From: a virus
Strand: one strand, 5' to 3'
Length of the DNA: 30,361 nt
IMG/VR virus record: IMGVR_UViG_3300032245_000776
Span: 1-30,361 of that record
Positions 1 to 30,361 of this stretch are shown piece after piece. The first letter of the stretch is position 1, and every line of letters starts with the position of its first letter. The position numbers and the translations under genes are program-made. The notes under the pieces are model-generated. The model searched no databases and had not been told where the DNA came from. It saw only the letters and a list, made by a program, of their open reading frames with translations.

Positions 1-178
1 AGGCTCGGCACACACTCACGGGATGGAGCAAAAAAGACCCGTTCGCTGTTCGCGAACTGCGGGCATCGCAATATCCTTGATTCGAGGTGCTATTGGCTAT
101 CTCCCCCGGTCGCGCCGTGGACTTCCCGCGCAGGTTTGTGTGTCCCGGTATCCTACAGATAGTAGGAGCAATAGACAA
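1..178. other. Leader upstream of the terminase genes, no gene recognised
   Basis: The frame of the small terminase stays open back to an ATG at 23, but those extra residues do not resemble the P27 family and a good ribosome site sits further down, so I treat this as leader. It holds a perfect 10-base palindrome GTTCGCGAAC at 48-57, which overlaps a small hairpin (GTTCGC 41-46 with GCGAAC 52-57). An AGGAG Shine-Dalgarno lies at 164-168. I see no convincing promoter and no gene on either strand. What precedes base 1 is unknown. Confidence 0.5.
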
Positions 179-667
179 ATGCGACCAGGACCGCCCCCAA
201 AGCCCAAGCATGTCCTCGCCTTGACAGGCTCATGGCGGGCTGACCACCGCGAGGAACTCGGCGAGTTCTACGACACGCTCCCGGAGCCGCCATCCTTCAT
301 GCGGGAGCGAGCGGCAGACTTCTTCAGGGAAGCCTGCGCCCAACTCGACGCGATGGGCGTCCTCGCCAAGACCGACAAGCATGCGGTCGTCCGGTACGCA
401 GCGACCCTCGACCGCTGGTATTCGGCCGAGGAGGAACTGGCCAAAAACGCGATCCATTTTCACAGCATGGTCGGACGCCAGGGCGAAGAAAAGGCGTCGA
501 AGCCGACGCCGTTCTTTGCGCAGTCTGCCGCATGCCATGAACAACTGCGGCAACTTGAGGCTGTCCTCGGGTTCACGCCCGCAGACAGGACTCGCCTGGG
601 CATGACCGTCATGGACAAGCAGGCCAAGTCGGCCGACCCCATGAAGGCGGTCCTCGCTGGTGGCTGA
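179..667 (+). CDS. Terminase small subunit, P27 family
   Basis: This is the DNA-recognition subunit of the packaging motor; it binds phage DNA and hands it to the large terminase. The 162-residue product opens with MRPGPPPKPKH, the basic proline-rich start typical of P27-family small terminases, followed by a helical body with the EPP and aromatic-rich segment common in the family. The start at 179 is chosen because AGGAG at 164-168 is 10 bases upstream and the family motif begins exactly there; an in-frame ATG at 23 would add 52 unrelated residues. The stop overlaps the GTG start of the large terminase by 8 bases, so the two are probably translated together. Family assignment is from sequence pattern and gene order. 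Confidence 0.85.
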   Translation: MRPGPPPKPKHVLALTGSWRADHREELGEFYDTLPEPPSFMRERAADFFREACAQLDAMGVLAKTDKHAVVRYAATLDRWYSAEEELAKNAIHFHSMVGRQGEEKASKPTPFFAQSAACHEQLRQLEAVLGFTPADRTRLGMTVMDKQAKSADPMKAVLAGG

Positions 668-2165
668 CGTTCGAGACTTCATATCCTGCCTCCGGCACTC
701 TCGCGGCGAGTTCGCCGGGAAACCGTTTGAGTTGTTCCCTTGGCAGGACGAGTACCTCGACAAACTCTTCAACACGAAGCGCCAAGACGGCACTCGTCAG
801 TACAGGCAGTCCCTTCTGGCCATCGGGCGCAAGAACGGGAAAACCCAGTTGTCGGCAGGCATCGGCCTGTTTGGGCTGGTAGCCGACGGAGAGCCGGGCG
901 CCGAGATCGTCTGCGTGGCCGGCGACCGGGAGCAGGCCACGATCTTGTTCGACGCCGCGAAGCAGATGGTCGAGGGGAACGAGACCCTTTCCTCGATCAT
1001 CAAGCCTTACCGCCGGTCGCTCGCTGTCCCCAGCACGAACAGCGTCCTGAAGGTGGTCTCCAGCGAGGCCGCGAGCAAGCACGGCTACGGCTGTTCGATG
1101 ATCTTGTTTGACGAGTTTCATGTCCAGAAAGACAGGGAACTTTACGATGTCCTGACCACAAGCACCGGCGCGCGGAGACAGCCGCTCACCATCCTGATTA
1201 CGACGGCCGGCTTCGACCGGCAGAGCATCTGCTACCAGATCTGGCAGTATGCCGAGAAGGTCCGGGACGGCCTGATCCAAGACCCGTCTTTCCTTCCATG
1301 CATCTACGCGGCACCGAACGATGCCGACCCGTTCGACGAGGCCAACTGGCGGCTTGCGAATCCGAACTTCGGCGTGACGGTCAAGGAAGAGTATTTCCGC
1401 GAGATCGCCGCCAGGGCCAGGAAGTCCACCAGCGACGAAATGACCTTTCGTCGCCTCCACTTGAACCAGTGGACGGCTTCCGAGGAGAAGTTCTTTCGCC
1501 ACGGCGTTTTTGAGGCTTGCGGAAGTCCGCTCAGGCCCACGGCCGGCCGCCCATGCTACTGCGGCCTTGACCTTGCCAGCACCTATGACACGACGGCCTT
1601 CGTGGCCATCTGGCCGGACGAAGACGGGACGTTCGACATGGAGGCGATGTACTGGATCCCAGGAGAGAACGCGCTAAAGCGCGAGCGCGCTGACAGAGTC
1701 CCGTATGGTCAATGGGCCAAGAGTGGTTTTGTTAGAATGACCGATGGTGACATCACCGATTACGACGAGATTCGCGACTACATACTCGATTTCTGCAACA
1801 GAAATTGGGTCAAAGGAGTGGCTATCGACCGCTGGAATGCGGTTCATTTGATGACCCAACTCTCTGCCGAGGGAGTGGTTGTTCACCCATTCGGGCAAGG
1901 ATATGGCGCGATGAACGCGCCGACCCGCCTCCTCGAAAACATCGTGACAACTGGCAGGCTCCGGCACGGCGGGAACCCGGTCTTGCAGTGGCAGGCGAGC
2001 AACGTCCAGGTGAAGACGAACGAAGATGGATTCATCAAACCTGTCAAAAAGTCTTCCCACGACATCGGCCGCATCGACGGCATCGTGGCCGCCTGCATGG
2101 CGCTCTCGCTTTCGAGCGGCGAGATTCACGGCCCCCAAGTAGAACCTGAAATCCTGGTGCTGTAG
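660..2165 (+). CDS. Terminase large subunit (ATPase-nuclease)
   Basis: This is the motor that pumps DNA into the prohead and cuts it. The 501-residue protein shows an N-terminal ATPase with Walker A GRKNGKT (residues 56-62) and Walker B MILFDE (147-152), including the catalytic acidic pair D151-E152. The C-terminal RNase H-like nuclease has CGLDLAS with D304, AIDRW with D390 and RIDGIVA with D473, the three metal-binding acidic positions expected. Length and motif order match HK97/P27-associated large terminases. It starts at a GTG at 660 that overlaps the small subunit, and ends sharing one base with the portal start (TAGTG). All key residues appear intact. Confidence 0.95.
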   Translation: MADVRDFISCLRHSRGEFAGKPFELFPWQDEYLDKLFNTKRQDGTRQYRQSLLAIGRKNGKTQLSAGIGLFGLVADGEPGAEIVCVAGDREQATILFDAAKQMVEGNETLSSIIKPYRRSLAVPSTNSVLKVVSSEAASKHGYGCSMILFDEFHVQKDRELYDVLTTSTGARRQPLTILITTAGFDRQSICYQIWQYAEKVRDGLIQDPSFLPCIYAAPNDADPFDEANWRLANPNFGVTVKEEYFREIAARARKSTSDEMTFRRLHLNQWTASEEKFFRHGVFEACGSPLRPTAGRPCYCGLDLASTYDTTAFVAIWPDEDGTFDMEAMYWIPGENALKRERADRVPYGQWAKSGFVRMTDGDITDYDEIRDYILDFCNRNWVKGVAIDRWNAVHLMTQLSAEGVVVHPFGQGYGAMNAPTRLLENIVTTGRLRHGGNPVLQWQASNVQVKTNEDGFIKPVKKSSHDIGRIDGIVAACMALSLSSGEIHGPQVEPEILVL

Positions 2166-3781
2166 TGGAGTCTCAGACTTCCGTCATCGAAGACATTCTT
2201 GAGATGCGCAGCGGCGTATCTCGCATCCTCGAAGAACTGATGGACAGGCGCGGCACCGTTTCTGGTGTCCAAGTGTCGCCTGAACTTGCCCTTCAGTGCA
2301 GCGCTGTTCTGGCCTGCGTCCGAGTGGTCTCCGAATCTGTGGCGTCCCTGCCATTCTCGCTCTACCGACGACTCGACATGGGCGGCAAGGAAGTGGCCGA
2401 TGGGATGCCGCTGCACAAGATCCTCTCAGAGACTCCGAACCCGTGGATGACGAGTTTTGAGTGGCGGGAACTGATGAACTCCTGGGCGATGCTCTGGGGT
2501 GCCGGCTACTCCGAGATCCGGCCGGGCCGATCAGGCTCCGTCACCGAACTCTGGCCGCTGCACCCGAGCCGCATGAAGCCAGAGCGGCTGAAGAACGGCA
2601 AGATTCAGTTCCTCTACAACGATCCGAACAAGCCCGGGGATCCAATCCCGTACCGGCAAGATCAGATCTTCCGGGTAACGTGGATGACGAAGGACGGGCT
2701 GAACTGCTACGTCCCCGTCAACATCTGCCGCGAGGCCATAGCGCTCGCCCAGGCTACCGAACTGCACTCTGGTGCGTTCTTCGGAAACGGCGCGAGGCCC
2801 GGCATCATCCTGGAGTCCGACCAGCCGCTCAAGCCAGAGACCGCCCAGCGTCTCAGGCAGACCTGGAACGACGCCCACGGCAGCGGCCCAGGCAACGCAT
2901 ACAAGACGGCCGTGCTGCCGTTTGGCATCAAGGCCAAGGAACTCTCCGGAACGAACGAGTCCAGCCAACTGATTGAGACCCGGCGCTACCAAGTCGAGGA
3001 CATCGCGAGGGGCTTCCGGGTGCCGGTCTACATGATCGGCGACCTGACAAAGAGTTCGTACTCATCGGTCGAGCAGCAAGGCTTGGACTTCGTGACGTTC
3101 ACGCTGGTGCCGTGGCTTCGACGCTGGGAAGGGGCTGTCAGGCGCGATCTTGTTGCAGACGATGACAACTACTTCGCCGAGTTCGACGTTCGCGGGCTTC
3201 TTCGCGGCGACAACGCCGGCCGGGCGCAGTATTACCGGGATCTCTGGTCGCTCGGCGTTCTTTCGATCAACGAGATTCGCGCCAGCGAAGGGATGAACCC
3301 CATTGACGGCGGCGACAAGCGGTTCGTCCAGGTCAACATGGCGCTGCTGGAGTCGTTCACGGTTCAGCCGGCGGAACCAGTTGCCGCCGATCCGGCGGCA
3401 ACGGATCCAGCGGCCGAAGCGGACCCTGCGGCGGCGCAGACCGACCCGGCGGCCACAGAACCGGCGGCAGACGCCGCCGCTGCACGCGCACTCTTCAAGC
3501 AGACGCTCCGGAAGTTGGCCGTCATCGAGGCCGATGGCATCAAGGAGCGCCGCAACAAGCCGGCCAAGTTGGCCGCGTGGCTCGAAGCCCACGAAAAGAG
3601 AATGCGGACAGAACTCTGCGACACAGCCAAGGCCACTGGGCTACAGATTGACGACTTCACTGCCCAGTGGATGAACGAAACACGCGAACTCCTGCTGTCG
3701 TGTCATCGCAGCGGAAAGCAGTACGAGGAGGTACTTGATACATGGACGGACAGAATCGAGAAGACATCGAGCGACGGCTGA
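2165..3781 (+). CDS. Portal protein, HK97 family
   Basis: The portal is the dodecameric ring at the head vertex through which DNA enters and leaves. Residues 1 to about 395 have the HK97-portal pattern: an SPELALQCSAVLACVRVVSES region near the start, TPNPWMTSFEWRE, and later RVPVYMIGDLTKSSYSSVEQQ followed by FTLVPWLRRWE, which is strongly diagnostic. After about residue 400 comes a low-complexity Ala/Pro/Asp linker with repeated DPAA units (nt about 3365-3490), then a charged helical domain to residue 538 that ordinary HK97 portals lack. The GTG start at 2165 is fused to the terminase stop. The gene runs 40 bases into the protease gene. Function is secure; the role of the C-terminal extension is unknown. 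Confidence 0.93.
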   Translation: MESQTSVIEDILEMRSGVSRILEELMDRRGTVSGVQVSPELALQCSAVLACVRVVSESVASLPFSLYRRLDMGGKEVADGMPLHKILSETPNPWMTSFEWRELMNSWAMLWGAGYSEIRPGRSGSVTELWPLHPSRMKPERLKNGKIQFLYNDPNKPGDPIPYRQDQIFRVTWMTKDGLNCYVPVNICREAIALAQATELHSGAFFGNGARPGIILESDQPLKPETAQRLRQTWNDAHGSGPGNAYKTAVLPFGIKAKELSGTNESSQLIETRRYQVEDIARGFRVPVYMIGDLTKSSYSSVEQQGLDFVTFTLVPWLRRWEGAVRRDLVADDDNYFAEFDVRGLLRGDNAGRAQYYRDLWSLGVLSINEIRASEGMNPIDGGDKRFVQVNMALLESFTVQPAEPVAADPAATDPAAEADPAAAQTDPAATEPAADAAAARALFKQTLRKLAVIEADGIKERRNKPAKLAAWLEAHEKRMRTELCDTAKATGLQIDDFTAQWMNETRELLLSCHRSGKQYEEVLDTWTDRIEKTSSDG

Positions 3782-5271
3782 TCGCCTGCGACACCGTCGT
3801 GGAGCGGTGCGCCTGCGACAAGACCGGCAAGAAGAAGGCCGTAATTCGCGGCTACGCGGCCTTGTTCAACTCCGACTCTCACGACCTGGGTGGGTTCGTG
3901 GAGCGGATTGCGCCAGGCGCCTTCGACGAGGTTATGAGGCGCGGCACCGACGTTGTTGGCCTTTACAACCACGAACAGATGTTCCTGCTTGGCCGCGAGT
4001 CTTCCGGGACGCTGCGGCTGTCTGTGGATGAGCGCGGCCTGCGGTACGAAATCGACGCCCCTGAAAGCCGCGCCGATGTCGTCGAGTCCATCGAAAGAGG
4101 CGATGTCCGCGGAAGTTCGTTCGCATTTCGCGTGAAGGGTGCCGGAGAGAAGTGGTCGCGCATGCAGGACGGCCGACAACTGCGTGAGATCACCTCGTTT
4201 GACGGCCTGTTCGACGTTGGGCCTGTGACGCGGCCGGCCTACCCGGCCACCGAGACGTTCGTGAGTCGCCGTGCGCTTGAGATGGCCAGCCGGTCGATGT
4301 ATTCAGCAGGCGACTTTGTCGCTTGGGATGGCGGCGTCGGCCGGATCGAGTACGTCATGTCGGAGGGATCCATCGGAGACTACTCCGAGTCGCCCATTGA
4401 GGCCACTCCGGACGACCCAGCCGCGCTTGTCCGGAAGTTCGACTTCGAGGACGGCACCTGGGAGGAGTCCGACTACTTCGTGGCCAAGAAGATGAGCGAA
4501 CTTGTCTCGGCCAGCAACATCATGGGCGAAGCCCCAGCGTTCATCGACCAGCGGGCCGCAAGCCTGAAGCCCACGGCCGGCATGGCCGCCGCCGCCAAGC
4601 GTGGCCTGCGTCTGCACGAAGAAGGCAAGTCTGGTGACGGCCTGAAGCCAGAGACCGTGGCCAGGGCAAACAAACTCGCCCGCCGCGAAGAGATGAACGA
4701 AGATTGGGTCGTTGAGATGAACGCTTGGTTTGCCCGACACGCTTCCGACAAAAAGGATGGCTGGGACAAGGCTGGCGAGGAAACGCCGGGCTTCGTCGCG
4801 CACTTGCTCTGGGGCGGCACACCGGCGAAGAACTGGGCCGCCCGCAAGGTGAAGGAACTTGAGGGACGCGCGATGGAGGATCCGGGCGGTGAGTCCCTCT
4901 CTCCGGCCAACTTCGCGCTCTACGAAGCAATCGAGCAGATCGTCGTCGATAACGGCAAGTGGCCGCAGGGCGGGCCAGACGGGGCGCACTACATGACCGA
5001 GAACCCGTTCGCCGAGCAAGGCATGCGGTGCGAGAACTGCGTGTTCTTCGAGAACGGCGCTTGCGAAGTCGTGGACGGTGAGATCGACCCGAACGCCGTC
5101 TGCAAACTGTGGGTCATCCCGGAGGAGAGGATCCAGGAGCCGGCTTCGCCGGCTCCTGACGCCGACCCTGCTGCGAAGAAGCCCGCAGAGCGATCCATCA
5201 ACCCGGCGTCGGAGGCGGCGAGGCTCCGAGCGAAGGCGTTGGAGGCCATCTCCAGTGGATCCTCTCGATAG
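3742..5271 (+). CDS. Prohead protease (U35/HK97-like) with three-part C-terminal extension
   Basis: Residues 1-180 match the HK97 prohead protease fold, which cleaves capsid and scaffold during head maturation: AVIRGYAALFN, the F-x-E-R-I-A-PGAF segment, a probable catalytic His in LYNHE (H77), Ser in GSSFAF (S125/S126), and DVGPVTRPAYPAT. The usual family length is near 200 residues, but this product has 509. Residues about 188-255 form a small Tudor/SH3-like module (GDFVAWDGGVGRIEYV, then DDPAALVRKF). Residues 275-375 resemble a phage module with NxxFARH and LLWGG motifs. Residues 429-460 hold C430-x2-C433-x7-C441-x12-C454, resembling a HiPIP-like or zinc-binding motif. The start has GAGGAGG at 3725-3731. 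The protease call is firm; the extension may act as a scaffold or be packaged. Confidence 0.88.
   Translation: MDGQNREDIERRLIACDTVVERCACDKTGKKKAVIRGYAALFNSDSHDLGGFVERIAPGAFDEVMRRGTDVVGLYNHEQMFLLGRESSGTLRLSVDERGLRYEIDAPESRADVVESIERGDVRGSSFAFRVKGAGEKWSRMQDGRQLREITSFDGLFDVGPVTRPAYPATETFVSRRALEMASRSMYSAGDFVAWDGGVGRIEYVMSEGSIGDYSESPIEATPDDPAALVRKFDFEDGTWEESDYFVAKKMSELVSASNIMGEAPAFIDQRAASLKPTAGMAAAAKRGLRLHEEGKSGDGLKPETVARANKLARREEMNEDWVVEMNAWFARHASDKKDGWDKAGEETPGFVAHLLWGGTPAKNWAARKVKELEGRAMEDPGGESLSPANFALYEAIEQIVVDNGKWPQGGPDGAHYMTENPFAEQGMRCENCVFFENGACEVVDGEIDPNAVCKLWVIPEERIQEPASPAPDADPAAKKPAERSINPASEAARLRAKALEAISSGSSR
5134..5158. repeat. Perfect 25-base stem-loop inside the protease gene
   Basis: Arms CAGGAGCCGGC (5134-5144) and GCCGGCTCCTG (5148-5158) pair perfectly over 11 bp around a TTC loop. 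It lies in frame in the protease tail and encodes roughly residues 465-472, in a disordered EPASPAP stretch. It has the same 11-3-11 geometry as the palindrome at 27442-27466. Confidence 0.75.
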
Positions 5272-6904: not shown

Positions 6905-7275
6905 TGCTCAAAGACTTCTTCGCAGACGACGATTCGCCCGACGAGAACGACGCCGACCCCATCGACGCCGAACTGTCGAACGCCGATTGGCCCAAGCGGA
7001 CCAAAGACACCCAGGCCGACATCGAGGAAGCCCTTGCCTCCGCGCCGCCATCGACCCCGTTCATCCACGGCCGCAACTGGTTCGCGTGGTTCGACTACGA
7101 AACGATGGATTGGGACGGAGACAGCGAGGACGCCCCGGTGGGCATGCTCCGCGAAGAGTTCAACGAATCTCGCATCACCGAGTACGTCGATGCCGAGAAG
7201 ACGCGCCGTGAACTCTACGAAGACGCCGTCATCTTTTTGGCCATCTGGGGCGTGAAGGCCGAAGTGGTTTCCTGA
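6904..7275 (+). CDS. Small very acidic protein coupled to the ADP-ribosyltransferase
   Basis: This 123-residue protein is not recognised. It is strongly acidic, with a D/E-dense N-terminus (FFADDDSPDENDADPID) and aromatic clusters such as RNWFAWFDYETMDWDGD, and has no membrane segment. The ATG at 6904 shares its first base with the toxin-like gene's stop (TGATG), and GGAG at 6894-6897 is well spaced, so the two are made together. An acidic protein placed directly after an ADP-ribosyltransferase could be its immunity partner or chaperone; that is inference from position and charge only. It could equally be a head protein or scaffold. A TTG two codons earlier (6898) is a less likely start. Confidence 0.7.
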   Translation: MLKDFFADDDSPDENDADPIDAELSNADWPKRTKDTQADIEEALASAPPSTPFIHGRNWFAWFDYETMDWDGDSEDAPVGMLREEFNESRITEYVDAEKTRRELYEDAVIFLAIWGVKAEVVS

Positions 7276-7337
7276 CCACCCGCCGACTGACTTGCACGGC
7301 GCGCCATGCAGCGCGTAGGCTACAGGTAGACATATTG

Positions 7338-7359
7338 CTCCGCGATGGAAGTCGCGGAG
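7338..7359 (+). promoter_or_regulatory. Hairpin in the major capsid leader
   Basis: CTCCGCGA (7338-7345) pairs perfectly with TCGCGGAG (7352-7359) around a 6-base loop. A second weaker stem, GCGGG/CCCGC, lies at 7401-7415. Both are in the 189-base gap 7276-7464, the largest in the window, ahead of what is normally the most expressed phage gene. There is no T-tract, so it does not look like an intrinsic terminator; an mRNA processing or stability role is possible. The rest of the gap shows only a weak TTGCAC/TAGGCT promoter-like pair. Confidence 0.45.
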
Positions 7360-7464
7360 TGCAGTGCGAGCGACTTGAGGATTCATTTCGCGGCGCGCTT
7401 GCGGGAACCACCCGCCAGCCGCCGCTTTTGCGTTTGGCTGGCTCAGACAAGGAGCAACAGCCAG

Positions 7465-8805
7465 ATGAAGAACCTCAAGCGACTTCAGGATCGTGCCGCG
7501 GCCATCGCCGCTCGCCTCAACGAACTTGCCGACATCGACGAGCGCTCGGAAGAGCAGACCGTCGAACTTCGTCGGCTCACCGAGGAGGCCGACACGGTCA
7601 AGACCGACCTTGAGTTCGAGCAGCGCCTTGCGGCCAAGTCGGCCGAACTCCAGACCATGATCGAGCCGGCCGCCCCCGCTCCCGCCAAGGGCAGCGAAGA
7701 AGGTGCGAAGCAGAAGAAGACCGAGGTTCGGGCGATTCTGCCCCATCACAGCACCCTGAAGGCGTTCAACGACGGTCCCGAGGCCGTCGAGTCGGCCTAC
7801 CGCTCGGGCCGCTGGCTCGGCGCGACGGTGTTCCGCCGGGAGGAAGACCTCCGGTGGTGCAAGGACAACGGCGTGGACACCCGCGCACTCGGCGAGAACT
7901 CGAACGCCCTCGGCGGCGCTCTGGTTCCCGAAGAGTTCGCCAACCGGGTGATCCGGCTCGTCGAGACCTATGGCACGTTCACCTCGGCCGCCGAGAACGT
8001 GTCGATGAGCCGCGACACCCTCATCATCCCGAAGCGGGTTTCTGGCACCACGGCGTACTTCGTTGGCGAAGGCTCCGGCGTGACCGAGAGCGACCCGACC
8101 TACACGAACGTCAGCCTGACGGCGAAGAAGTTGGCCGTGGCCTGCCGTATGTCGAGCGAGGTGGTGGACGACGCTTTTGTGAGCCTCGCTGACAGCGTGG
8201 CTCAGGAGTTCTCGACTTCGCTGGCATTCCGAATCGACACTTGCGGCTGGATCGGCGACGGCTCGGCCCAGTTTGGCGGCATCAACGGCATCGTCAACAA
8301 GATCAACGACGGCACTCGCACTGCGTCGGTGGTCACGGCCCTCGCCGGAAACACGGCGTTCGAGACCCTCGACATCGAGGACTTCCTCGCGGTCGTCGGC
8401 CGGATTCCTCTCTACGCCCGCCAGGGCGCTGCGTGGTACATCTCGCCGGCCGGGTATGCGGCGAGCATTGCTCGCCTGAAGTACGCAGCCGGCGGCAACA
8501 CCGTGGACAACATGGGCCGAGACGCCGGAGAGTCCTTCCTGGGCTACCCAGTGAAGACGATCCACGTTCTCAACAGCACCCTCGGGGCCGACGCCAACAA
8601 GGTGAAGGTTCTGTTCGGGAACATGGGCCTATCGAGCATCTACGCTCGCCGGCGTGACTTCTCGGTGCGGCTGTACGATCAGGTCTACGCCACGACCGAC
8701 CAGTTGCTCCTCCAAGGCACGATGCGGTTTGACATCAACCACCACTCCCTCGGATCTACGACAGAGAGCGGCCCCGTGGTCGCCCTCCGTACTCCGAACT
8801 CTTGA
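7465..8805 (+). CDS. Major capsid protein, HK97 fold
   Basis: This is the main shell subunit of the head. The 446-residue product has an N-terminal charged coiled coil (about residues 3-70, LNELADIDERSEEQT region) followed by an Ala/Pro linker, the layout of the HK97 delta/scaffold domain removed by the prohead protease. Then comes a mature HK97-like core with GGALVPEEFANRVIRLVE, TAYFVGEGSGVTESDP and the YISPAGYAASIARLK region, ending with DQVYATTDQLLLQGTMRFD. The ATG at 7465 is preceded by AAGGAG (7449-7454), a strong ribosome site; the frame is open 40 codons further upstream but lacks a comparable site. Gene order after portal and protease supports the call. Confidence 0.93.
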   Translation: MKNLKRLQDRAAAIAARLNELADIDERSEEQTVELRRLTEEADTVKTDLEFEQRLAAKSAELQTMIEPAAPAPAKGSEEGAKQKKTEVRAILPHHSTLKAFNDGPEAVESAYRSGRWLGATVFRREEDLRWCKDNGVDTRALGENSNALGGALVPEEFANRVIRLVETYGTFTSAAENVSMSRDTLIIPKRVSGTTAYFVGEGSGVTESDPTYTNVSLTAKKLAVACRMSSEVVDDAFVSLADSVAQEFSTSLAFRIDTCGWIGDGSAQFGGINGIVNKINDGTRTASVVTALAGNTAFETLDIEDFLAVVGRIPLYARQGAAWYISPAGYAASIARLKYAAGGNTVDNMGRDAGESFLGYPVKTIHVLNSTLGADANKVKVLFGNMGLSSIYARRRDFSVRLYDQVYATTDQLLLQGTMRFDINHHSLGSTTESGPVVALRTPNS

Positions 8806-8826
8806 TAGCGAAGGAGCAATCAGCAG

Positions 8827-9273: not shown

Positions 9274-9351
9274 TCCCGTATAGCGGGACGGCCAGGACGG
9301 CCGACAAAGGCGCAAGGAAGCGCGCCCGCTCCAACACAAGGAGCGAATGAC

Positions 9352-11373: not shown

Positions 11374-11376
11374 CGA

Positions 11377-12179: not shown

Positions 12180-12883
12180 TGACCAAGGCAGACGCATTCA
12201 TCCGGATCGGCGTGAAGGGCATCAAGCCCGTCTTGGACATCCTCGACACCGTCGCCGGCGCTGCGTCGTATGGCAAGACTCTTGAAGAGGTGCTGAAGAA
12301 AGCCGCGGTCCCGATCAGGGACGGGTACAAGGCCGCTGCGCTGACGCACGACGCCACCGGAAACCTTGCCGCCAGCACGACGATCAAGACAAAGACGTAC
12401 CGCCCAGGCGTGTCGGTGGCAATCGCCGGCCCGCGTCACACCGGCTCGTCCGGCGCAACAACCGAACTTCCGAGCGGCAATCACAGTTGGCTCGTCGAGT
12501 TCGGAAGCAACGGCCGCCGCAGCCCGTCTTCGAGGGGGAAGAGAAAGACGTATATCAACGTCCACAAGAAGATCAACAAGAAAATGACGCAAGTCGCGAC
12601 CCTTGAGGACAGCGATGATTTTGCCAAGCGGTCCCAGGGGTACTACTTCCTGATGTCTTCGTGGCGCGAGCCGACGCGGCAGGCCCGCGCAGGAAAGGGG
12701 TATACACACGACTTCCTGCCGGGTGGCGGCGTCTACACGCTCCAGCCTGGAAAGACCTACGGCGCCATGCCGGCGTATCACCTCATGGAAAACACCGTCA
12801 AGGCAAAGCGGGCGCAGTCAGAGAAAATCATTCGTGACGGCCTCATCGACGCCATCAACAAGGCCGTTGCGGGGGCGCTCTGA
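12179..12883 (+). CDS. Neck/tail completion protein, HK97 gp10-like
   Basis: A 234-residue protein in the position of HK97 gp10. It shows the family features of an N-terminal helix pair (VLKKAAVPIRDGYKAAA), a strand with TGNLAASTTIK, the VEFGS segment after SGNHSWL, and a C-terminal PAYHLMENTVKAKR helix, corresponding to the P-x-F-LRPAxe end of gp10 proteins. It is longer than the usual 130-150 residues because of a basic insertion around residues 115-180 (KRKTYINVHKKINKK). Start is the ATG at 12179, overlapping the joining protein stop. It probably helps terminate the tail and attach it to the head. Confidence 0.8.
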   Translation: MTKADAFIRIGVKGIKPVLDILDTVAGAASYGKTLEEVLKKAAVPIRDGYKAAALTHDATGNLAASTTIKTKTYRPGVSVAIAGPRHTGSSGATTELPSGNHSWLVEFGSNGRRSPSSRGKRKTYINVHKKINKKMTQVATLEDSDDFAKRSQGYYFLMSSWREPTRQARAGKGYTHDFLPGGGVYTLQPGKTYGAMPAYHLMENTVKAKRAQSEKIIRDGLIDAINKAVAGAL

Positions 12884-13311
12884 TGATGCTCCTGCCGGAG
12901 AGCCATATTTACGCCCGGCTGGTGTCGGACCCAGGCGTGGCACGGCTGGTCGGGTTCCAGGTCTACCCCATCGCGGTCCCGAAGGGGGCAGCCATGCCGT
13001 TCATCCTCTACAAGCGGTCGAACGTGCGGCGGGAGGGGACGCTGGGAAACACCCCGCTGTTCATGCCGGAGGTCTCGCTCCAGGTAGCCTCCTGGGCGCT
13101 GACCTATGAGGGCGCCAAGGAACTTGCGGACGCCGTCAGGCTGTCCCTCGATGGCCACACAGGCACACTCTCCGGGGTTACAATACACGATATGAGGCTT
13201 GTCTCCGAAGTGGACGACTTCCTCGACCCCACCGCGGTTGGGGCGCAACTGCCACCGGCATACGAAGTCAGGCAACTGTTTCAGGTCCGCTGGTCTGAAG
13301 CGACCGGCTGA
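12883..13311 (+). CDS. Tail completion protein, DUF3168/HK97 gp11-like
   Basis: A 142-residue protein matching the tail terminator/completion family in size, order and pattern: an N-terminal LVSDPGVARLVGFQVYP segment, PFILYKRS, a beta strand EVSLQVASW, a helix with YEGAKELADAVRLSL, and a C-terminal strand ending FQVRW. It probably caps the tail tube at the head-proximal end. The ATG at 12883 shares a base with the gp10-like stop; ATG at 12886 is an equally possible start one codon on. Confidence 0.82.
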   Translation: MMLLPESHIYARLVSDPGVARLVGFQVYPIAVPKGAAMPFILYKRSNVRREGTLGNTPLFMPEVSLQVASWALTYEGAKELADAVRLSLDGHTGTLSGVTIHDMRLVSEVDDFLDPTAVGAQLPPAYEVRQLFQVRWSEATG

Positions 13312-14074: not shown

Positions 14075-14077
14075 ACC

Positions 14078-18827: not shown

Positions 18828-18838
18828 GGAAGGGAATC

Positions 18839-19207: not shown

Positions 19208-19209
19208 AG

Positions 19210-20271: not shown

Positions 20272-20273
20272 AC

Positions 20274-20678: not shown

Positions 20679-20679
20679 T

Positions 20680-24351: not shown

Positions 24352-24698
24352 TGCCTGAAATCCCGAACTTTCCGACGGCACGAACCATCCCATATGCGGC
24401 TCGCCCTGCACGGCTTTCGTGGCAGGCTGTTCACGGCGAAACGATCACCGCTGACTTGCCGTGCGGGCGAGACCTCACGAACATCGACACGGCGGTTCTC
24501 TACGTTTTCACCAGCACTACTGGCGGATCGCCGACGGCGGTCCCGTGCCAGATCATCAACTCCAGCGCTGGTGTTGTCCGCGTCGAGTACGACACCTCGT
24601 CCACGCAGGTAGGCCAGTGGCGTTGGACGCTGTTCCTGATCGCTCCCACCCAGCCGATTCCGGCATACACAGGCACCGTCGAGATCACCGAAGCATGA
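24351..24698 (+). CDS. Small baseplate/fibre-associated protein
   Basis: A 115-residue beta-rich protein whose ATG shares a base with the large tail gene's stop (TGATG). The pattern IDTAVLYVFTS, CQIINSSAGVVRVEYD and WRWTLFLIA, ending TGTVEITEA, resembles the N-terminal domain of BppU-type baseplate or fibre-anchoring proteins, where a TxxIYxFxxG-like strand is followed by a V-x-Y/W-x-L sheet. The likeness is by eye and not conclusive. Alternative: small virion decoration protein. Confidence 0.65.
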   Translation: MPEIPNFPTARTIPYAARPARLSWQAVHGETITADLPCGRDLTNIDTAVLYVFTSTTGGSPTAVPCQIINSSAGVVRVEYDTSSTQVGQWRWTLFLIAPTQPIPAYTGTVEITEA

Positions 24699-25048
24699 TC
24701 GGTCCAAATACATCCTTTGCGCCGACGAAGGGAATGCTCTGCGATTTCGATGTCGCCGGCGAGTCGTTCGTGTGCAAGAACTGCGGAATACGCATCCCCC
24801 AGCGGCTCTCACCTTCTGGCAAGCCGTTCGTCGTCTGCACCAAGCCGGTTGTTGGCCGTCCGGAACCGGAGCCTGCCGGCCTCGGCGACATGGTGGCGTC
24901 TGCCCTGGACGGCGTCGGCATCACGAAGGACCGCGTTCAGGCGCTTGCCAAGAAGGTCGGCATCAACGACTGCGGATGCAGCCGCAGGCAAGAGATGATG
25001 AATCGCTTTGGGCAGAAGTACCTCGGCATTGGCCGTCCGAAGAAATGA
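24695..25048 (+). CDS. Cysteine-motif accessory protein (zinc-ribbon-like)
   Basis: A 117-residue protein with an N-terminal possible zinc-binding module, VCKNCGIRIP with a further Cys in FVVCTKP, a helical middle (GDMVASALDGVGITKDRVQALAKKVGI) and a C-terminal NDCGCSRRQEMMNRF motif. Short proteins ending in a C-x-C/G-C-R-R-x-x-x-N pattern are frequent in phage late regions but have no settled function. ATG at 24695 overlaps the previous stop (ATGA), which fixes the start. It may bind nucleic acid or metal; this is inference. Confidence 0.7.
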   Translation: MIGPNTSFAPTKGMLCDFDVAGESFVCKNCGIRIPQRLSPSGKPFVVCTKPVVGRPEPEPAGLGDMVASALDGVGITKDRVQALAKKVGINDCGCSRRQEMMNRFGQKYLGIGRPKK

Positions 25049-25051
25049 CTC

Positions 25052-25342
25052 ATGGCTACAGAACACCACTTCACGCTCATGGGCAGGAGGTGGCCGATGC
25101 GGTTCACCAAACTGCGCGGCCAAGCGGTCGGCTGGGCATACCTTCCAGACACCAAGAATCCAAACCTCAAGCGCAAGATCCTCATCGACGAAAGGCTAAA
25201 GCGGCGTTCCCTCCTCGAAACCCTCATCCATGAGTGCCTCCATGCCATCTTCCCGCAGATGTCCGAAGAGACCATCACCGAAGCCGCCAGAGACCTCGCC
25301 AGAGTCCTGTGGATCCTTGGATACAGGCAGCAAAATCCTTGA
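25052..25342 (+). CDS. Tiny HExxH metallopeptidase-like protein
   Basis: A 96-residue protein with the zinc-peptidase signature LLETLIHECLHAIFP: H60-E61-x-x-H64, followed by SEETITEAARDLARVLWILGY, where an acidic residue (E72, E73 or E77) could be the third zinc ligand. This arrangement occurs in small phage proteins distantly related to SprT-like or other minimal zincins. There is no signal peptide, so it would act in the cytoplasm or virion. Substrate unknown. The ATG at 25052 has only a weak purine stretch upstream. Confidence 0.72.
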   Translation: MATEHHFTLMGRRWPMRFTKLRGQAVGWAYLPDTKNPNLKRKILIDERLKRRSLLETLIHECLHAIFPQMSEETITEAARDLARVLWILGYRQQNP

Positions 25343-25349
25343 CCGCGTC

Positions 25350-25574
25350 ATGTTGGTGGCCAGAACTGGCCGCGAGCGCGAGAACTGGACGATGCGGCTC
25401 CCGGCCGCAGTCCTGAAAGAACTGATCGAGGTCCGGGAGAAGTTTCTCAGCGGCGAGACCGGGTTCTCTGCCCGCTCGCTCGCCTGGGCTGTCGTGGACG
25501 ACTTGGCAACAACTCATGGTCTCACAAACGTGTGTAGCCGGGAGACCATGCGGATATGGCTGTCAAAGAAATGA
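25350..25574 (+). CDS. Small basic helical protein, possible DNA-binding
   Basis: A 74-residue protein, all-helical in pattern, with a basic start (VARTGRERENWTMRLP) and a C-terminal segment (SARSLAWAVVDDLATTHGLTNVCSRETMRIWL) that could form a helix-turn-helix, with the SRETMRIWL helix as recognition helix. No family is recognised and the DNA-binding idea is weak. The ATG at 25350 is 7 bases after the previous stop; the gene overlaps the phosphoesterase gene by 19 bases. Confidence 0.6.
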   Translation: MLVARTGRERENWTMRLPAAVLKELIEVREKFLSGETGFSARSLAWAVVDDLATTHGLTNVCSRETMRIWLSKK

Positions 25575-26578
25575 CCGACCGCGTTATAGCAGTCGCGGCC
25601 GACGCCGAGGCGGCGCGGCTTCGCGGAGAGATCACTGACCTTCGCAGGAAGTACAACGCCGCGCTGGCTCAGATCGAGCGCGAAAAAGAGGCCCGCGAGA
25701 GCATCACGGCGCTGGCAGGCGTGAAGTCCAGGAAGATCACCAGGGCGAGAAAAAGCGGAAAGCGGCCAGACGCCACCGCAATCCTGGTTTGTTCAGATTG
25801 GCACGTTGAGGAGTACGTTGACCCTGCCACGAACGTGCCTGGGAACGAGTACACCCTTGAGATCGCTGATCGCAGAATCAAGCAACTGGTTCAGCGGGCC
25901 GGAATGCTCATCGAGCATGAGAAGTCCCTGACGAACATCAGGCGCGTCGTCGTGGCGGCCCTTGGCGACTTCGTGACGGGCCATATTCACGATGACCTCG
26001 TCGAGACCACACAACTTGCGCCGCTGGCAGCGATTCGCTGGGCCGGCGAGAGGCTTGGCGGCGTGATCGACGCCATGTCGGAGATAGCCCCCGTCCTGGT
26101 CGTGACGGCCAGCGGGAACCACGGCAGGACTACCCACAAGCCCCGCATTGCTACAGAGAACGAGCATTCGTTCGAGCAGCACTTGTATCTGACGATGGCC
26201 GCGCAGGAGAAGCGCAAGCACGTTTCGTGGCAAGTCGGCGCGGGCTATCTCAACATCGCAGACCTGGACGGGTTCCCTGTCAGGTTCCATCATGGTCACG
26301 CCATCCGGTTCGGTGGTGGCGTGGGCGGCCTGACGATCCCGGCAAACAAGGCCATAAGCAACTGGAACATTTCCAGGCGCGTCCAACTGGACGTATTCGG
26401 TCACTGGCACACGTTTTCGTGGCTTCCGTACAGGTTCGTGGCAAACGGTAGTTTGATCGGCCACAACGCTTTCGCGGATAGAATCAAGGCCGAGTTCCAG
26501 CCCCCGAGCCAGAGTCTCGTCGTCGTGGATCACAGCCACAGCCGCGTCACCAAAGTCCTCCCGGTGTTTGTTGCATGA
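25556..26578 (+). CDS. Calcineurin-like metallophosphoesterase
   Basis: A 340-residue protein with the complete metallophosphoesterase motif set: D81-x-H83 (CSDWH), G137-D138 (ALGDF), G187-N188-H189 (SGNHG), H246-G-H248 (FHHGHAI) and G282-H283-x-H285 (FGHWHTF). These residues bind two metal ions and hydrolyse phosphate esters or nucleic acid. An N-terminal coiled coil (about residues 15-50) precedes it. Many phages carry such proteins, related to SbcD-like nucleases, and they may act in DNA processing or nucleotide turnover; the true substrate is not evident. GGGAG at 25540-25544 supports the ATG at 25556; an ATG at 25571 (ATGA overlap) is an alternative. Confidence 0.87.
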   Translation: MAVKEMTDRVIAVAADAEAARLRGEITDLRRKYNAALAQIEREKEARESITALAGVKSRKITRARKSGKRPDATAILVCSDWHVEEYVDPATNVPGNEYTLEIADRRIKQLVQRAGMLIEHEKSLTNIRRVVVAALGDFVTGHIHDDLVETTQLAPLAAIRWAGERLGGVIDAMSEIAPVLVVTASGNHGRTTHKPRIATENEHSFEQHLYLTMAAQEKRKHVSWQVGAGYLNIADLDGFPVRFHHGHAIRFGGGVGGLTIPANKAISNWNISRRVQLDVFGHWHTFSWLPYRFVANGSLIGHNAFADRIKAEFQPPSQSLVVVDHSHSRVTKVLPVFVA

Positions 26579-27048
26579 GCGAAATCGAACTCCTTCGCAT
26601 CGCAGCCCACGCCGCCAGCACCCGCTCAGGAGACCCAAGAACACAAAACGGGGCCGTTTTGTCTCGGCCGGACAACTTCATTGTGTCGGCGGCAAACTCG
26701 TTCCCGGCAGGCGTCAGGCCAAGGGCGGAACCGCCGGAGAAGTACACCTACATCGAACACGCCGAGCGAAACGTCATCTACAAGGCGGCCTCGATGGGCT
26801 GGCCGACGGGCGGCGCGACCATGTACTGCCTATGGTTCGCCTGCGCAGAGTGCGCGAGGGCCATTGTCCAGGCGGGGATCTACGAAGTAGTCGGACTCGC
26901 GAAGACCAGGAACGCAACGCCCGACAGATGGCTGGATGCCGTCCAGGATGGCGAGGACATCTTGCGTGAGGCTGGAGTTGGAATGCGGTGGCTCGGCGAA
27001 CGAATCGGGGCCACGATCATGTTCGACGGCAAGGAGATGCACCTGTGA
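26575..27048 (+). CDS. Deoxycytidylate (dCMP) deaminase
   Basis: A 157-residue zinc-dependent deaminase converting dCMP to dUMP, feeding dTMP synthesis. It shows the zinc site H62-A-E64 (EHAERN) and C90-x-x-C93 (FACAECARAI), with E64 the proton shuttle, and the DPRTQNGAV segment near the start typical of dCMP and related cytidine deaminases. The usual PCxxC has Ala instead of Pro before the first Cys, a mild variation. ATG at 26575 overlaps the phosphoesterase stop (ATGA), and the stop overlaps the kinase GTG, linking both nucleotide enzymes in one unit. A different deaminase substrate is possible. Confidence 0.87.
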   Translation: MSEIELLRIAAHAASTRSGDPRTQNGAVLSRPDNFIVSAANSFPAGVRPRAEPPEKYTYIEHAERNVIYKAASMGWPTGGATMYCLWFACAECARAIVQAGIYEVVGLAKTRNATPDRWLDAVQDGEDILREAGVGMRWLGERIGATIMFDGKEMHL

Positions 27049-27605
27049 TTCTTGTTGGCATCCACGGCGCAGCCGGGGCTGGGAAAAACTCGTTTGCAGA
27101 AGCCCTGATTCAAGGGACTCACTGGGAAGACAGGGCGTTCGCCGGCCCGCTCTATGAGGCCGTCTCGGTCATCACCAGGATGCCCGTGCCGTGGCTCAAG
27201 GACCGCAAGAACAAGGAGACCGTCATCCCGTGGGTCGGAAAGTCCCCGAGGGAACTCCTTCAACTCCTGGGGACTGACTTCGGCCGGAACATGGTCCGGG
27301 ACGACTTCTGGATCCAACTCGCCATGCAGCCGCCGACGAACCCGGAGTCCACCGGAATCGTCTACACCGACGTTCGGTTCGACAACGAGGCAGAGGCCAT
27401 CATCTCTCGCGGGGGCGTGGTCATAGAAGTCGTGAGGCCGGGTGTCTCCTGCCTCGCAGGAGACACGCAGACACACCCCAGCGAGAAGCCCCTCTCGCGC
27501 CACCTGATCTTTGAGACCATCCAGAACGACGGCACCATGGATGACCTCCGCGTGGCCGCGGAATCAGCCCGCGTGAGGCTACTGGCCAATATAATGAGTG
27601 TGTGA
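27045..27605 (+). CDS. Deoxynucleoside monophosphate kinase (T4 gp1-like)
   Basis: A 186-residue P-loop kinase predicted to phosphorylate dNMPs to dNDPs with ATP. Walker A is GAAGAGKNS (residues 8-16) right at the N-terminus. Family features follow: a LLQLLGTDFGR motif, DDFWI and DVRFDNEAEAI near the middle, VVIEVVRPG and a later HPSE segment. The GTG at 27045 overlaps the deaminase stop (GTGA) and places the P-loop at the usual distance from the start; an upstream ATG at 26988 would add residues from inside the deaminase gene. Between RPG and HPSE lies a short stretch encoded by a perfect 25-base palindrome (27442-27466), perhaps an insertion. Confidence 0.88.
   Translation: MILVGIHGAAGAGKNSFAEALIQGTHWEDRAFAGPLYEAVSVITRMPVPWLKDRKNKETVIPWVGKSPRELLQLLGTDFGRNMVRDDFWIQLAMQPPTNPESTGIVYTDVRFDNEAEAIISRGGVVIEVVRPGVSCLAGDTQTHPSEKPLSRHLIFETIQNDGTMDDLRVAAESARVRLLANIMSV
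27442..27466. repeat. Perfect 25-base stem-loop inside the kinase gene
   Basis: GTGTCTCCTGC (27442-27452) pairs perfectly with GCAGGAGACAC (27456-27466) around a CTC loop. It encodes residues about 133-141, between the conserved RPG and HPSE of the kinase. The 11-3-11 geometry and the CTCCTG/CAGGAG elements are shared with the stem-loop at 5134-5158. Confidence 0.78.
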
Positions 27606-27654
27606 CACGCCACGGGTGGCCCATCGAGGCCCGCAACGCACAAGGAGGTGAAGC

Positions 27655-28008
27655 ATGGAACCGAAGATTCGGCGAAAGTTCAAGGCGGTCGGCGTAACGA
27701 TCTCCACCGCCACTGCATCTTCAACGACCCTCAGATGGGACGACGTTGCTGGCGGCACCCTTGAAATGGGGACCGTCTCGACCAGCGCTACCTCCATCCA
27801 GTTGTGGGCGTCCGACGCCATGACGGGGGCATTCGGCCGCCTTTACAACGCCGACGGCTCCGCGGCCGACATCACGCTTGCCCCGTCTGCCTCCGAGTCA
27901 CGGGTCTACTCGCTTCCTGACGCCTGCTACGGCGCCGGAGCGATCAAGTTGGTGGCTGCGAACGCAGCCGGAACCGGGGCGGTCTGTATCGTCACCATGA
28001 AGACCTGA
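27655..28008 (+). CDS. Small beta-rich protein with very strong ribosome site
   Basis: A 117-residue protein preceded by AAGGAGGTG (27642-27650), the best Shine-Dalgarno in the window, implying high expression. It is basic at the N-terminus (MEPKIRRKFKAVGV) and then Ser/Thr/Ala/Gly-rich and beta-prone (TLEMGTVSTSATSIQLWASDAMTG, DITLAPSASESRVYSLPD), with no membrane segment. Such proteins are often virion decoration subunits, which would fit the expression level, but it lies among metabolic genes and I recognise no family. Leader 27606-27654 has no other evident signal. Confidence 0.7.
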   Translation: MEPKIRRKFKAVGVTISTATASSTTLRWDDVAGGTLEMGTVSTSATSIQLWASDAMTGAFGRLYNADGSAADITLAPSASESRVYSLPDACYGAGAIKLVAANAAGTGAVCIVTMKT

Positions 28009-28010
28009 CC

Positions 28011-28538
28011 GTGACTGACGCCCTGTGGGTTCTGTCGGCGTGGTTGATGGCAGACTTCATGTCCGGGGTCTTCCACTGGTGGGAGGACCGCTATGGCGTT
28101 GAGGATTGGCCCGTCATCGGGCCGCTGATCGTGTCCCCGAACATCATGCACCACACCCAGCCGCGGGCGTTCCTGGAGGGCAGCATCCTCCAGCGGAACT
28201 GGACTACCGTCGTGCCGGCCGCCCTGTTCGCCGCCGGCTGTGTCTGGGCCGGCTGGAACTGGCTGGCGCTGGCCTGTGCGTTCACCGGGGTGGCCAACGA
28301 AGTCCACGCCTGGGCGCACCAGAAGTGCTGCCGGCAGATCCGTGGGCTTCAGATGCTCGGAATCCTGCAAAGCCAGGAGCAGCACTCGCAGCATCACACG
28401 CAGCCTTTCAGCGAGAACTACTGCGTGATGACTGACCTTGTGAACCCGGTGCTTGAGCGGGCCGGTTTCTGGCGCGGAGCGGAGTGGGTCATCAAGCAGT
28501 GCGGGGTAGAACCGAGCCTGGAAAGGGAACTGGCGTGA
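28011..28538 (+). CDS. Kua/CarF/TMEM189-type lipid desaturase (auxiliary metabolic gene)
   Basis: The 175-residue membrane protein has the signature of the Kua/TMEM189 lipid desaturase family, which includes CarF and human PEDS1 (plasmanylethanolamine desaturase, making the vinyl-ether bond of plasmalogens) and plant FAD4. Visible: D15-x3-G19-x2-H22-W-x2-D26 (DFMSGVFHWWED), H47-H48 (MHHTQP), N96-x2-H99-x3-H103 (NEVHAWAHQ), and H125-x2-H128-H129-x2-P-x4-Y-C (HSQHHTQPFSENYC), the eight-histidine di-iron pattern. Hydrophobic spans lie at about 3-20 and 66-92. It is shorter than CarF (about 280 residues), lacking N-terminal membrane helices, but all histidine boxes are present. GTG start at 28011. 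Whether it makes plasmalogens or another desaturated lipid is not decided by sequence. Confidence 0.88.
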   Translation: MTDALWVLSAWLMADFMSGVFHWWEDRYGVEDWPVIGPLIVSPNIMHHTQPRAFLEGSILQRNWTTVVPAALFAAGCVWAGWNWLALACAFTGVANEVHAWAHQKCCRQIRGLQMLGILQSQEQHSQHHTQPFSENYCVMTDLVNPVLERAGFWRGAEWVIKQCGVEPSLERELA

Positions 28539-28765
28539 ACAAGGAAACCCTGTTCAGCATCATCGAGAAGTACGGGTTTCCGGTCTTCGTGGCTTCGGCT
28601 CTCGGAATCTCGCTCCGAGAGGACGTAGTCAAGCCGCTTGTCGCCGAACACACTCAGTTCGTCAAGAGCGTGATAGAGACCCAGAAAGAGATTGCCAAAA
28701 CGGTCAGCGAACAAACAAAACTCCTGTACGCGCTCCAGCCGAGAGCGACTGAAAGCGCCGAGTAA
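28535..28765 (+). CDS. Small membrane protein, holin-like candidate
   Basis: A 76-residue protein with one probable membrane segment near the N-terminus (YGFPVFVASALGISL, about residues 13-27) followed by a charged amphipathic helix (VVKPLVAEHTQFVKSVIETQ). This layout resembles small one-helix phage proteins of the BhlA/UviB type often proposed as holins. No endolysin is visible next to it, which weakens that call. The GTG at 28535 overlaps the desaturase stop (GTGA), so it could instead be a membrane partner of the desaturase. Confidence 0.6.
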   Translation: MNKETLFSIIEKYGFPVFVASALGISLREDVVKPLVAEHTQFVKSVIETQKEIAKTVSEQTKLLYALQPRATESAE

Positions 28766-28768
28766 AAA

Positions 28769-30361
28769 ATGCCTCTCTCGCCTCGCACCTTTCGCCCGGC
28801 GTCCACCGGCTTCACCCCCCGCTCCATCAGCGGCCTCGCCCTCTGGCTTGACGCTGCGGACAGCAGCACCACCTACACCACCGACGCCGGGCCGGTGACG
28901 GCGGTGACGGCGCCGACGGACATTGCGGGGTGCGCGCTGTGGTTGGACGGTGCAGACTCGTCGGCGTCCAGCATGGCGCTGAACGGCTCGCTTGTCGAAA
29001 CGTGGAAGGACAAGACCAGCAACGGCAGAGACTTCACGGCAACCAGCACTGCAAGGCCAACGCTCACAGGCTCCGCGATCAACGCTCGCAGCGTCGTCAC
29101 GTTCAACGGTTCGTCCAATACGATGACCGGCAACGCGGCAGCGCAGGACGTTATCCGCAACCTCGCGGGTTATACCGTGTTCACGGTGCTGCGGACGACG
29201 ACGGTCGCAGCGGGCGAGCGACTCGCATTCGGCGTTGGCGCGACAGTGCTGTTTCGCGCAGGTCAGACCGACAGTCGTTCGTTCATCGGAGGCCGTCGCG
29301 TTGGAGGCGACACTCTGGAAAGCGTTACCGGAACAGCGGGAGAACTGACGGCCAACGCCGCCTTCATTCAGTCGGCCGTCGTCAATCACACGGCGCAGTC
29401 GCTGACCGGCCTTCGCAACGGTACGGCATACGGAACTGACACAACCTACATGGCGGCTGGCGTCAGCGAGAACGTGGCGTCGTCGGTGTCGGTCGGGACG
29501 CAGGCCGGTGGCACATACGGCTTCTGGAACGGAGACATAGCCGAAGTAGTCGTCTACAACACTGCCATCTCCACCGCCGACCGCGCCCGCGTCGAAGCCT
29601 ACCTCGCAACCAAGTGGGGCATCAGCGGCGTCCACGCTCCCGCCACCGCGACGAGCGATCCGGTGGGGTACTGGGCCGACAAGAGCGGCAACGCGAGGCA
29701 CGCTACGCAGGCGACGGGGGCGAGCCGCCTGACTGTCAGCGGTACGGCCTTGAACAACCGGAAGCAACTCGGCCTTGCGTCGCAGCATCTTCGCGGGCCG
29801 TCGCTCTCATGGAACGGATCAGTCACGGCTTACTGGGTAGGCCGAACGGGTCAGGCTTCCAGCGGGGCGGTGGTGTTCCATGATGGATCAGTTGCCGACC
29901 AGACCGACGCCTTCCACTGTGGATGGCTCAACGCGCAGGGCGTCGGCGCATACGGAAACGGCTGGGGCAGCGGCAACGCGCCAAGGGCGGAGTCGCCTTC
30001 TGCTTGGCGGTCTGCGGACATTGTCGCTGGCGTCACACTGTCTGGCACAGAATCGCTCGCTCGCGTCAACGGCGCGACAGTCAACACGGTGGCAGGACTA
30101 ACAGGCACCCTGTCACAGTCAACGCCGGGATCGTTCTACATTGGCCGAGAGGCTTCTGGAACGTGGACGAACCTCAACGGCACGCTGGCCGAACTGCTCA
30201 TCTACCAACCGGCCCTCAGTGCGTCACAGAGGCAGCGAGTCGAACGCTACCTCGCCGCCAAGTGGGGCATCACGCTGGCCCCGCAGGTCAGCAACGCCGA
30301 CGCGCAGGATTGGATCAACCGCGTCTACGCGAACGGCGGCACGGTGTCGTCCAGCACGGCG
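28769..30361 (+). CDS. LamG-like repeat tail fibre protein, partial (cut by window end)
   Basis: An open frame of 531 codons runs from ATG 28769 to the window edge with no stop. It contains LamG/concanavalin-like domains. The opening motif ALWLDxADSS occurs twice (about residues 24-32 and 56-64), and the domain-ending motif GDIAEVVVYN...VEAYLATKWGI (255-287) recurs as GTLAELLIYQ...VERYLAAKWGI (471-501), 216 residues apart. A further YWADKSGNARHATQATG starts the second full domain. These folds bind sugars or proteins, and here probably the host surface. The end (SNADAQDWINRVYANGG) begins a segment often seen in phage fibres. No clear ribosome site precedes the ATG. Confidence 0.83.
   Translation, partial: MPLSPRTFRPASTGFTPRSISGLALWLDAADSSTTYTTDAGPVTAVTAPTDIAGCALWLDGADSSASSMALNGSLVETWKDKTSNGRDFTATSTARPTLTGSAINARSVVTFNGSSNTMTGNAAAQDVIRNLAGYTVFTVLRTTTVAAGERLAFGVGATVLFRAGQTDSRSFIGGRRVGGDTLESVTGTAGELTANAAFIQSAVVNHTAQSLTGLRNGTAYGTDTTYMAAGVSENVASSVSVGTQAGGTYGFWNGDIAEVVVYNTAISTADRARVEAYLATKWGISGVHAPATATSDPVGYWADKSGNARHATQATGASRLTVSGTALNNRKQLGLASQHLRGPSLSWNGSVTAYWVGRTGQASSGAVVFHDGSVADQTDAFHCGWLNAQGVGAYGNGWGSGNAPRAESPSAWRSADIVAGVTLSGTESLARVNGATVNTVAGLTGTLSQSTPGSFYIGREASGTWTNLNGTLAELLIYQPALSASQRQRVERYLAAKWGITLAPQVSNADAQDWINRVYANGGTVSSSTA
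28894..28911 (+). repeat. 9-base tandem repeat in the fibre gene
   Basis: GGTGACGGC occurs twice in tandem (28894-28902 and 28903-28911), encoding a VTAVTA linker between the truncated first LamG start and the second. Confidence 0.7.

Follow-up and report, generated by a model that had tools for sequence, protein, structure and literature searches.

The stretch analysed here, referred to below as the window, is the whole of the IMG/VR virus record IMGVR_UViG_3300032245_000776 (30,361 bases, 61.8% GC), and the feature under study is the complete absence from it of the tetranucleotide AGCT. Comparison with PHROGs revealed the gene order of a tailed phage (Caudoviricetes), with the genes for the small and large terminase subunits followed by those for the portal, the head protease and the major capsid protein. 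The window is a tailed-phage contig, and the record is probably a fragment of a larger genome. Judged by sequence similarity, named phages are its distant kin only: they gave no close DNA match to window bases 1-24000, their 60 records with a capsid match all fell below 60% identity, and so did their 2,437 records with a terminase match, identity being no higher than 44% in the 15 matches listed. Among its annotated genes are the following.

23 to 667, + strand: terminase small subunit (phrog_83, E 1.6e-27; our own gene calling favours a start at 221)
660 to 2165, + strand: terminase large subunit (phrog_9, E 3.7e-148)
2165 to 3781, + strand: portal protein (phrog_12, E 1.3e-104)
3742 to 5271, + strand: head maturation protease, in the N-terminal part of the frame (phrog_80, E 5.2e-42, residues 26-181)
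7345 to 8805, + strand: major capsid protein (phrog_10, E 2e-47), the basis of the set of relatives and of the trees
25556 to 26578, + strand: phosphoesterase/exonuclease-like protein (phrog_284, E 3.1e-37; the match to Pfam Metallophos lies under its cut-off)

The first-pass annotation of the window had reported that AGCT was missing throughout, where about 100 copies would be expected at about 60% GC. An exact count returned 0 copies, against 104.5 expected under independent bases and 71.5 under a maximal-order Markov model. When all 256 tetramers were scored against the Markov expectation, AGCT ranked lowest (z = -10.0), followed by CGCG (z = -5.5), of which the window holds 271 copies; other four-base palindromes, said in the same annotation to be present, were indeed found in the counts. 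Sixty synonymous-codon shuffles, in which the proteins and the codon usage were held fixed, yielded 118.6 +/- 6.7 AGCT compared to the observed 0. The bending of codon usage that had been noticed by eye could also be put into figures. Lys/Gln/Glu-Leu pairs (n = 117) are written 97 times as xxA-CTN, 20 times as xxG-TTN and never as xxG-CTN, even though third-base G outnumbers A at the Lys, Gln and Glu codons of the window (1033 vs 380); AGC accounts for 0 of the 111 Ser codons that precede a T, and GCT for 0 of the 87 Ala codons that follow xxA. The AGCT-containing relative G019 uses xxG-CTN 143 times. The window is also low in AATT (7 copies), CTAG (7) and TTAA (1), to a degree that depends on the model; all three are low in AGCT-containing relatives as well, AATT and TTAA less so. 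TTAA has 0 copies in the AGCT-free contig G001 and 1 in the window, and some members of the family may be avoiding TTAA and AATT as well as AGCT.

Related phages were collected from IMG/VR through the capsid gene. In the first set, made up of the best 80 of 102 capsid relatives, AGCT was zero in 26 loci and present in 54, and searches with the terminase and the exonuclease added 77 loci, 18 of them with zero AGCT and some of them second stretches of one contig. Two more capsid searches brought the loci with a capsid gene to 192, from which the window's own copy, same-record refetches, a bacterial contig and loci whose capsid DNA was identical to that of another were dropped, leaving 130 distinct rows with the window among them. 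AGCT is zero in 42 of these 130 loci and present in 88. The 42 zero loci total 496 kb, in which approximately 1,596 AGCT were expected and none was found. Above these 42, the next lowest observed/expected ratio among the 130 rows is 0.14 (2 of 14), and the top bin spans 1.0 to 1.2. The longest AGCT-free contig, G001, has 56,310 bases and 0 AGCT vs 145 to 202 expected, by model. Counts in seven AGCT-containing contigs, set against codon-shuffle expectation, were 188 of 224 (G019), 127 of 182 (G031), 76 of 128 (G028), 106 of 224 (G021), 100 of 223 (G020), 60 of 165 (G027) and 55 of 179 (G029), that is, observed/expected ratios of 0.31 to 0.84, with AGCT still the most depleted tetramer in G021, G027 and G029. 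Contigs partly depleted of AGCT are frequent in the family, but values between zero and about one-seventh of expectation are rare.

Placed on capsid trees, the AGCT-free state was strongly clustered. On a tree of 110 rows it changed 4 times, against a mean of 26.3 with shuffled labels; on the tree of 130 rows it changed 7 times, at least 5 of the changes being forced by well supported branches, against shuffled means of 35.5 and 35.7. The AGCT-free rows of the larger tree fall into groups of 21 (the window included), 8, 6, 3 and 2 plus two single loci, and the groups of 21 and 6 stand together in one 29-row clade of the 110-row tree (support 94). These were quick trees built with no bootstrap, and change counts are blind to gain vs loss; on them, the AGCT state is shown to have switched at least four to five times in the family.

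How the sites disappeared was followed by comparing homologous genes. On the AGCT-poor side not one survived of the 252 AGCT sites seen in AGCT-containing relatives (nucleotide identity 72.3%), whereas 120 of 353 were kept between AGCT-containing relatives, a slightly closer control (76.4%). Replacements were alike in both comparisons, AACT and AGTT being foremost in the frame xAG-CTx, and TCN serine codons among others elsewhere. Amino acids were unchanged at 138 of the 252 lost sites. The 12 one-mismatch neighbours of AGCT occurred at 0.96 to 1.7 times expectation in six pooled AGCT-free contigs. This pattern of loss suggests ordinary substitutions, many of them synonymous, that were favoured by selection, and not a deamination signature.

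AGCT is not the only word missing. Among words with at least 6 copies expected under the Markov model, the window lacks 12 of 30 six-base palindromes, namely CGATCG, CTCGAG, GACGTC, TTCGAA, ACGCGT, AGGCCT, TGATCA, CGTACG, CTGCAG, GGGCCC, TCATGA and ATCGAT, vs 4 of 1,463 non-palindromic six-mers; across 14 family contigs the figures are 147 of 449 vs 59 of 22,242. Degenerate words were surveyed with the 614 recognition sites of the Biopython enzyme list. In the window, GDGCHC (0 of 47 expected), RGGNCCY (0 of 23), CGATCG (0 of 19), CTCGAG (0 of 17), GACGTC (0 of 14) and YACGTR (0 of 10) are gone, and 20 of the 432 catalogued sites with at least 10 copies expected fall under 0.1 of expectation; since recognition sites overlap, these 20 entries are not 20 independent words. 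Several of the absent non-palindromic words are parts of degenerate enzyme sites, which are lacking as whole units. The missing set differs among relatives: G019 has GRGCYC 0 of 81 and RGATCY 0 of 48, and G028 has GGWCC 2 of 76. CTCGAG is at 0 in six of seven AGCT-poor contigs (G011 has 3) vs 28 to 39 copies in six of seven AGCT-containing ones (G031 has 0), and CTGCAG is absent from three of the AGCT-poor contigs and has 19 to 31 copies in the other four. On the capsid tree, among those of the 130 rows with at least 5 copies of the word expected, these states were again clustered, with 12 changes vs 24 for shuffled labels (CTCGAG), 15 vs 32 (GTCGAC) and 11 vs 24 (GACGTC); no row lacked CGGCCG (129 rows) or TCGCGA (93 rows). 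Absences of AGCT and CTCGAG are loosely linked (both in 18 rows, AGCT only in 13, CTCGAG only in 9, neither in 55). Avoidance is limited to restriction-like palindromic words and does not extend to words generally.

Twelve other phage sequences were run through the same code as yardsticks: ten from named phages, of which six were truncated to 37 to 50 kb, and two IMG/VR loci. Pooled, they lacked 49 of 395 palindromes and 63 of 18,657 non-palindromic words, the absent palindromes being 0 of 47 in lambda, 7 of 36 in T7 and 8 of 32 in D3112. The most similar of the twelve was Anabaena phage A-4L, which has lost GATC (0 of 97), GGCC (0 of 42) and 12 of 40 six-base palindromes; unlike the window, it is an unrelated phage of a cultured cyanobacterium and lacks different words. 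Staphylococcus phage K resembles the window in having one four-base palindrome wholly gone (GATC, 0 of 113 in the first 50 kb) and differs from it in that it lacks just 1 of the 30 six-base palindromes expected and that its host and enzyme are known, the lack of GATC being described as directed against Sau3A (PMC6532042). The share of absent palindromes is 33% in the family and 30% in A-4L, and nine of 14 family contigs lie above A-4L (the highest being G010, 17 of 29); as twelve yardsticks are too few, we do not call the family beyond the known range. In the survey by Rusinov et al. (2018, PMC6286503) of palindromic Type II sites in double-stranded DNA phages, a site below 0.1 of expectation counts as eliminated, and complete or near-complete elimination is given for roughly one in ten viral genomes and, among pairs of a Type II site and a genome, for 7.1%; it is almost limited to orthodox Type II sites and was rarely seen for other types. 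That survey deals with phages whose hosts and enzymes are known, in contrast to the window's family, in which many words are gone at once and differ among close relatives. Literature searches in one open-licence library turned up no previous description of a phage that had eliminated AGCT. A distinct case was met in L155-L157 (53% GC), distant kin through the exonuclease gene only, in which GATC is at 0 vs 44 to 95 expected and AGCT is normal; this is another single-word elimination, in an unrelated phage.

We conclude, with a probability of about 0.87, that AGCT was lost under selection from Type II restriction enzymes of the hosts, including one of AluI specificity, and we infer the agent to be a host Type II enzyme cutting entering DNA. 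The missing words are best read as long adaptation to hosts armed with such enzymes, and the window thereby adds a strong and orderly new example to restriction-site avoidance, a strategy already known. Every AGCT left unprotected would lower the chance of surviving entry by much the same factor, and selection would go on removing sites until zero remain; because synonymous codons can always avoid AGCT, the proteins would not need to change. The same process would have removed roughly a dozen further recognition words, or more, and relatives facing other enzyme sets, or meeting the AGCT enzyme less often or while protected, would keep AGCT fully or partly. The avoidance of so many palindromes at once is in keeping with hosts that possess several Type II systems. 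Of the two kinds of selection proposed in the first-pass annotation, the one acting on an AluI-type site has good support in the strict zero over clades, the exactness of the word and the loss of other palindromes; avoidance of a methylation mark is not supported, as the mix of replacements does not differ from that found when AGCT-containing relatives are compared with one another.

The same replacement mix bears on whether AGCT might have been removed by mutation, host methylation of the word being followed by deamination to AGTT and AACT. These two words are the most frequent replacements and are raised in AGCT-free contigs (1.7 vs 1.35); they also lead between AGCT-containing relatives, however, and the reading frame in which AGCT mostly occurs is the one where changes to AACT or AGTT are synonymous. 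The outer letters were changed at some sites, and transversions and switches between serine codons were seen too; an exact zero is hardly to be expected from mutation pressure, making this account highly improbable. It is also unlikely that the phages encode a nuclease specific for AGCT, directed at the DNA of the host and sparing a genome that lacks the word. Such an enzyme would account for the strict zero across whole clades, and G001 does carry a small HNH protein and a Holliday-junction-resolvase-like protein; both, however, have relatives in AGCT-containing contigs. Sixteen G001 genes have no relative in the seven AGCT-containing contigs, and the 12 of them that were scanned (the other four have 41 to 66 residues) revealed no nuclease, only glycosyl- or sulfotransferase-like domains, an MT-A70 methylase, a prepilin leader, sub-cut-off matches or nothing. 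Gene clusters likewise contained no nuclease specific to the AGCT-free side, most AGCT-free records being fragments, and a phage nuclease would leave the dozen further missing words unexplained.

Unusual restriction enzymes exist, and word counts are blind to enzyme class. Selection at AGCT by some other four-base host system than a classical endonuclease-methylase pair, such as a restriction glycosylase or a modification-dependent system, is nevertheless unlikely in our estimation, for the remaining missing words resemble a mixture of ordinary Type II specificities. As to compositional bias or an assembly artefact, rare codons and base composition do account for some of the shortage of TTAA and CTAG, two words of which relatives are short as well; for AGCT, codon-preserving shuffles expect 119 copies. 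AGCT-free and AGCT-containing relatives were moreover assembled from the same metagenomes, namely 3300042507 (L008 with zero, L017 with 13), 3300045999 (L009 with zero, L029 with 15), 3300031951 (L025 with zero, L047 with 53) and 3300042453 (L086 with zero, L119 with 27), and fragmentation at AGCT would break contigs and not leave one of 56 kb without the word. Either origin is scarcely credible.

Several observations sit less well with selection by host restriction enzymes. A 43.7-kb contig, G002, retains 3 AGCT, so that the zero rule is not absolute; L004, counted among the 42 zero loci, is a stretch of this very contig, and zero in a fragment is therefore no proof of zero in the genome. Some asymmetric words are nearly gone: CTCAG (1 of 46 in G003), GAGACC (0 of 24 in G019) and CACGTC (0 of 31 in G028), although the Rusinov et al. 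survey (PMC6286503) seldom saw elimination for types other than orthodox Type II. G001 carries an integrase and an excisionase-like domain, and temperate phages show weaker and less frequent elimination in that survey. Searches of genome_contigs with the capsid protein or the terminase profile found no prophage, and with it no host and no AGCT enzyme; the terminase profile retrieved one distant Oscillospiraceae fragment (36% identity).

The three AGCT of G002 (L162 12544, 13174 and 15598) lie within approximately 3 kb, in the contexts GAGCTC, CAGCTG and CAGCTG. Recombination as their source was not supported: in a comparison that excluded G002's own loci and contig G014 (L010, L178), 13 of 14 500-base pieces around them best matched an AGCT-free stretch, the remaining piece (12501-13000) giving no match.

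A broader proposal, which we hold tentatively and on the doubtful side of even, is that the restriction enzymes of the uncultured hosts have left an almost precise negative imprint in each genome of the family, with a dozen or more words missing as units, some degenerate and some asymmetric ones among them, that the set switches between relatives and that AGCT marks one host group entered or left at least four times. If this is true, the missing words would give the restriction repertoire, and hence the host range, from phage sequence alone. For the window, restriction-site avoidance predicts that its hosts should cut AGCT, CTCGAG, CGATCG, GACGTC and several more. The family provides natural replicates for the speed at which a genome is emptied of a word, for the rarity of near-zero states and for reading the host from missing words. 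Restriction-site avoidance is known and has been surveyed in phages with known hosts; here it is seen in an uncultured family, for many words at once and with a set differing among relatives. AGCT had been put forward in the first-pass annotation as a handle on the host; as AGCT is one of about a dozen or more missing words, the whole missing set serves better than AGCT alone.

Phage methylases are a possible reason why relatives retain AGCT. C5-type methylases were matched in 0 of 18 AGCT-poor vs 6 of 14 AGCT-containing records, and N4/N6-type methylases in 2 of 18 vs 6 of 14, most of the 18 being fragments that may lack the early region; the AGCT-containing contig G027 has a match to neither type. 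Methylation of AGCT as m4C is listed for the uncultured freshwater Lake Biwa Thaumarchaeon (PMC6329791), an archaeon for which a table in that paper gives the AGCT methylase without a restriction-modification system, and nothing ties it to the window's phage.

A short protein of G001 (L159 9755-10042) opens with a prepilin-type leader (N_methyl domain) and might be host-derived. The protein starts like a pilin-like leader that is common in planctomycetes, which might hint at a planctomycete host; this idea was not used, only the prepilin-type leader itself being supported. The helicase-like protein of G001 has 842 residues vs 546 in G002. The large terminases of G008 (507-3119, L168; 870 residues) and G029 (44399-46918, L193; 839 residues) contain an internal insert, their relatives having approximately 500 residues; the insert may be an intein.

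Three long genes of the window have no family in PHROGs or Pfam. Its remaining features lie towards the right-hand end.

26575 to 27048, + strand: cytidine/deoxycytidylate deaminase family protein (PF00383, E 3.3e-14)
27045 to 27605, + strand: deoxynucleotide monophosphate kinase-like protein (PF21448, E 3.9e-12 on the longer frame 26988-27605; the start at 27045 is from our own gene calling)
28011 to 28538: lipid-desaturase-domain protein, plasmanylethanolamine desaturase-like (match below the NCBIfam cut-off)
28769 to 30361, running off the window end: long repetitive surface-protein-like gene, LamG-like by eye

The copy of the repetitive surface-protein-like gene in G001 (L160 4420-7398) had no match in NCBIfam. 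The lipid-desaturase-domain gene of the window is possibly an auxiliary metabolic gene.

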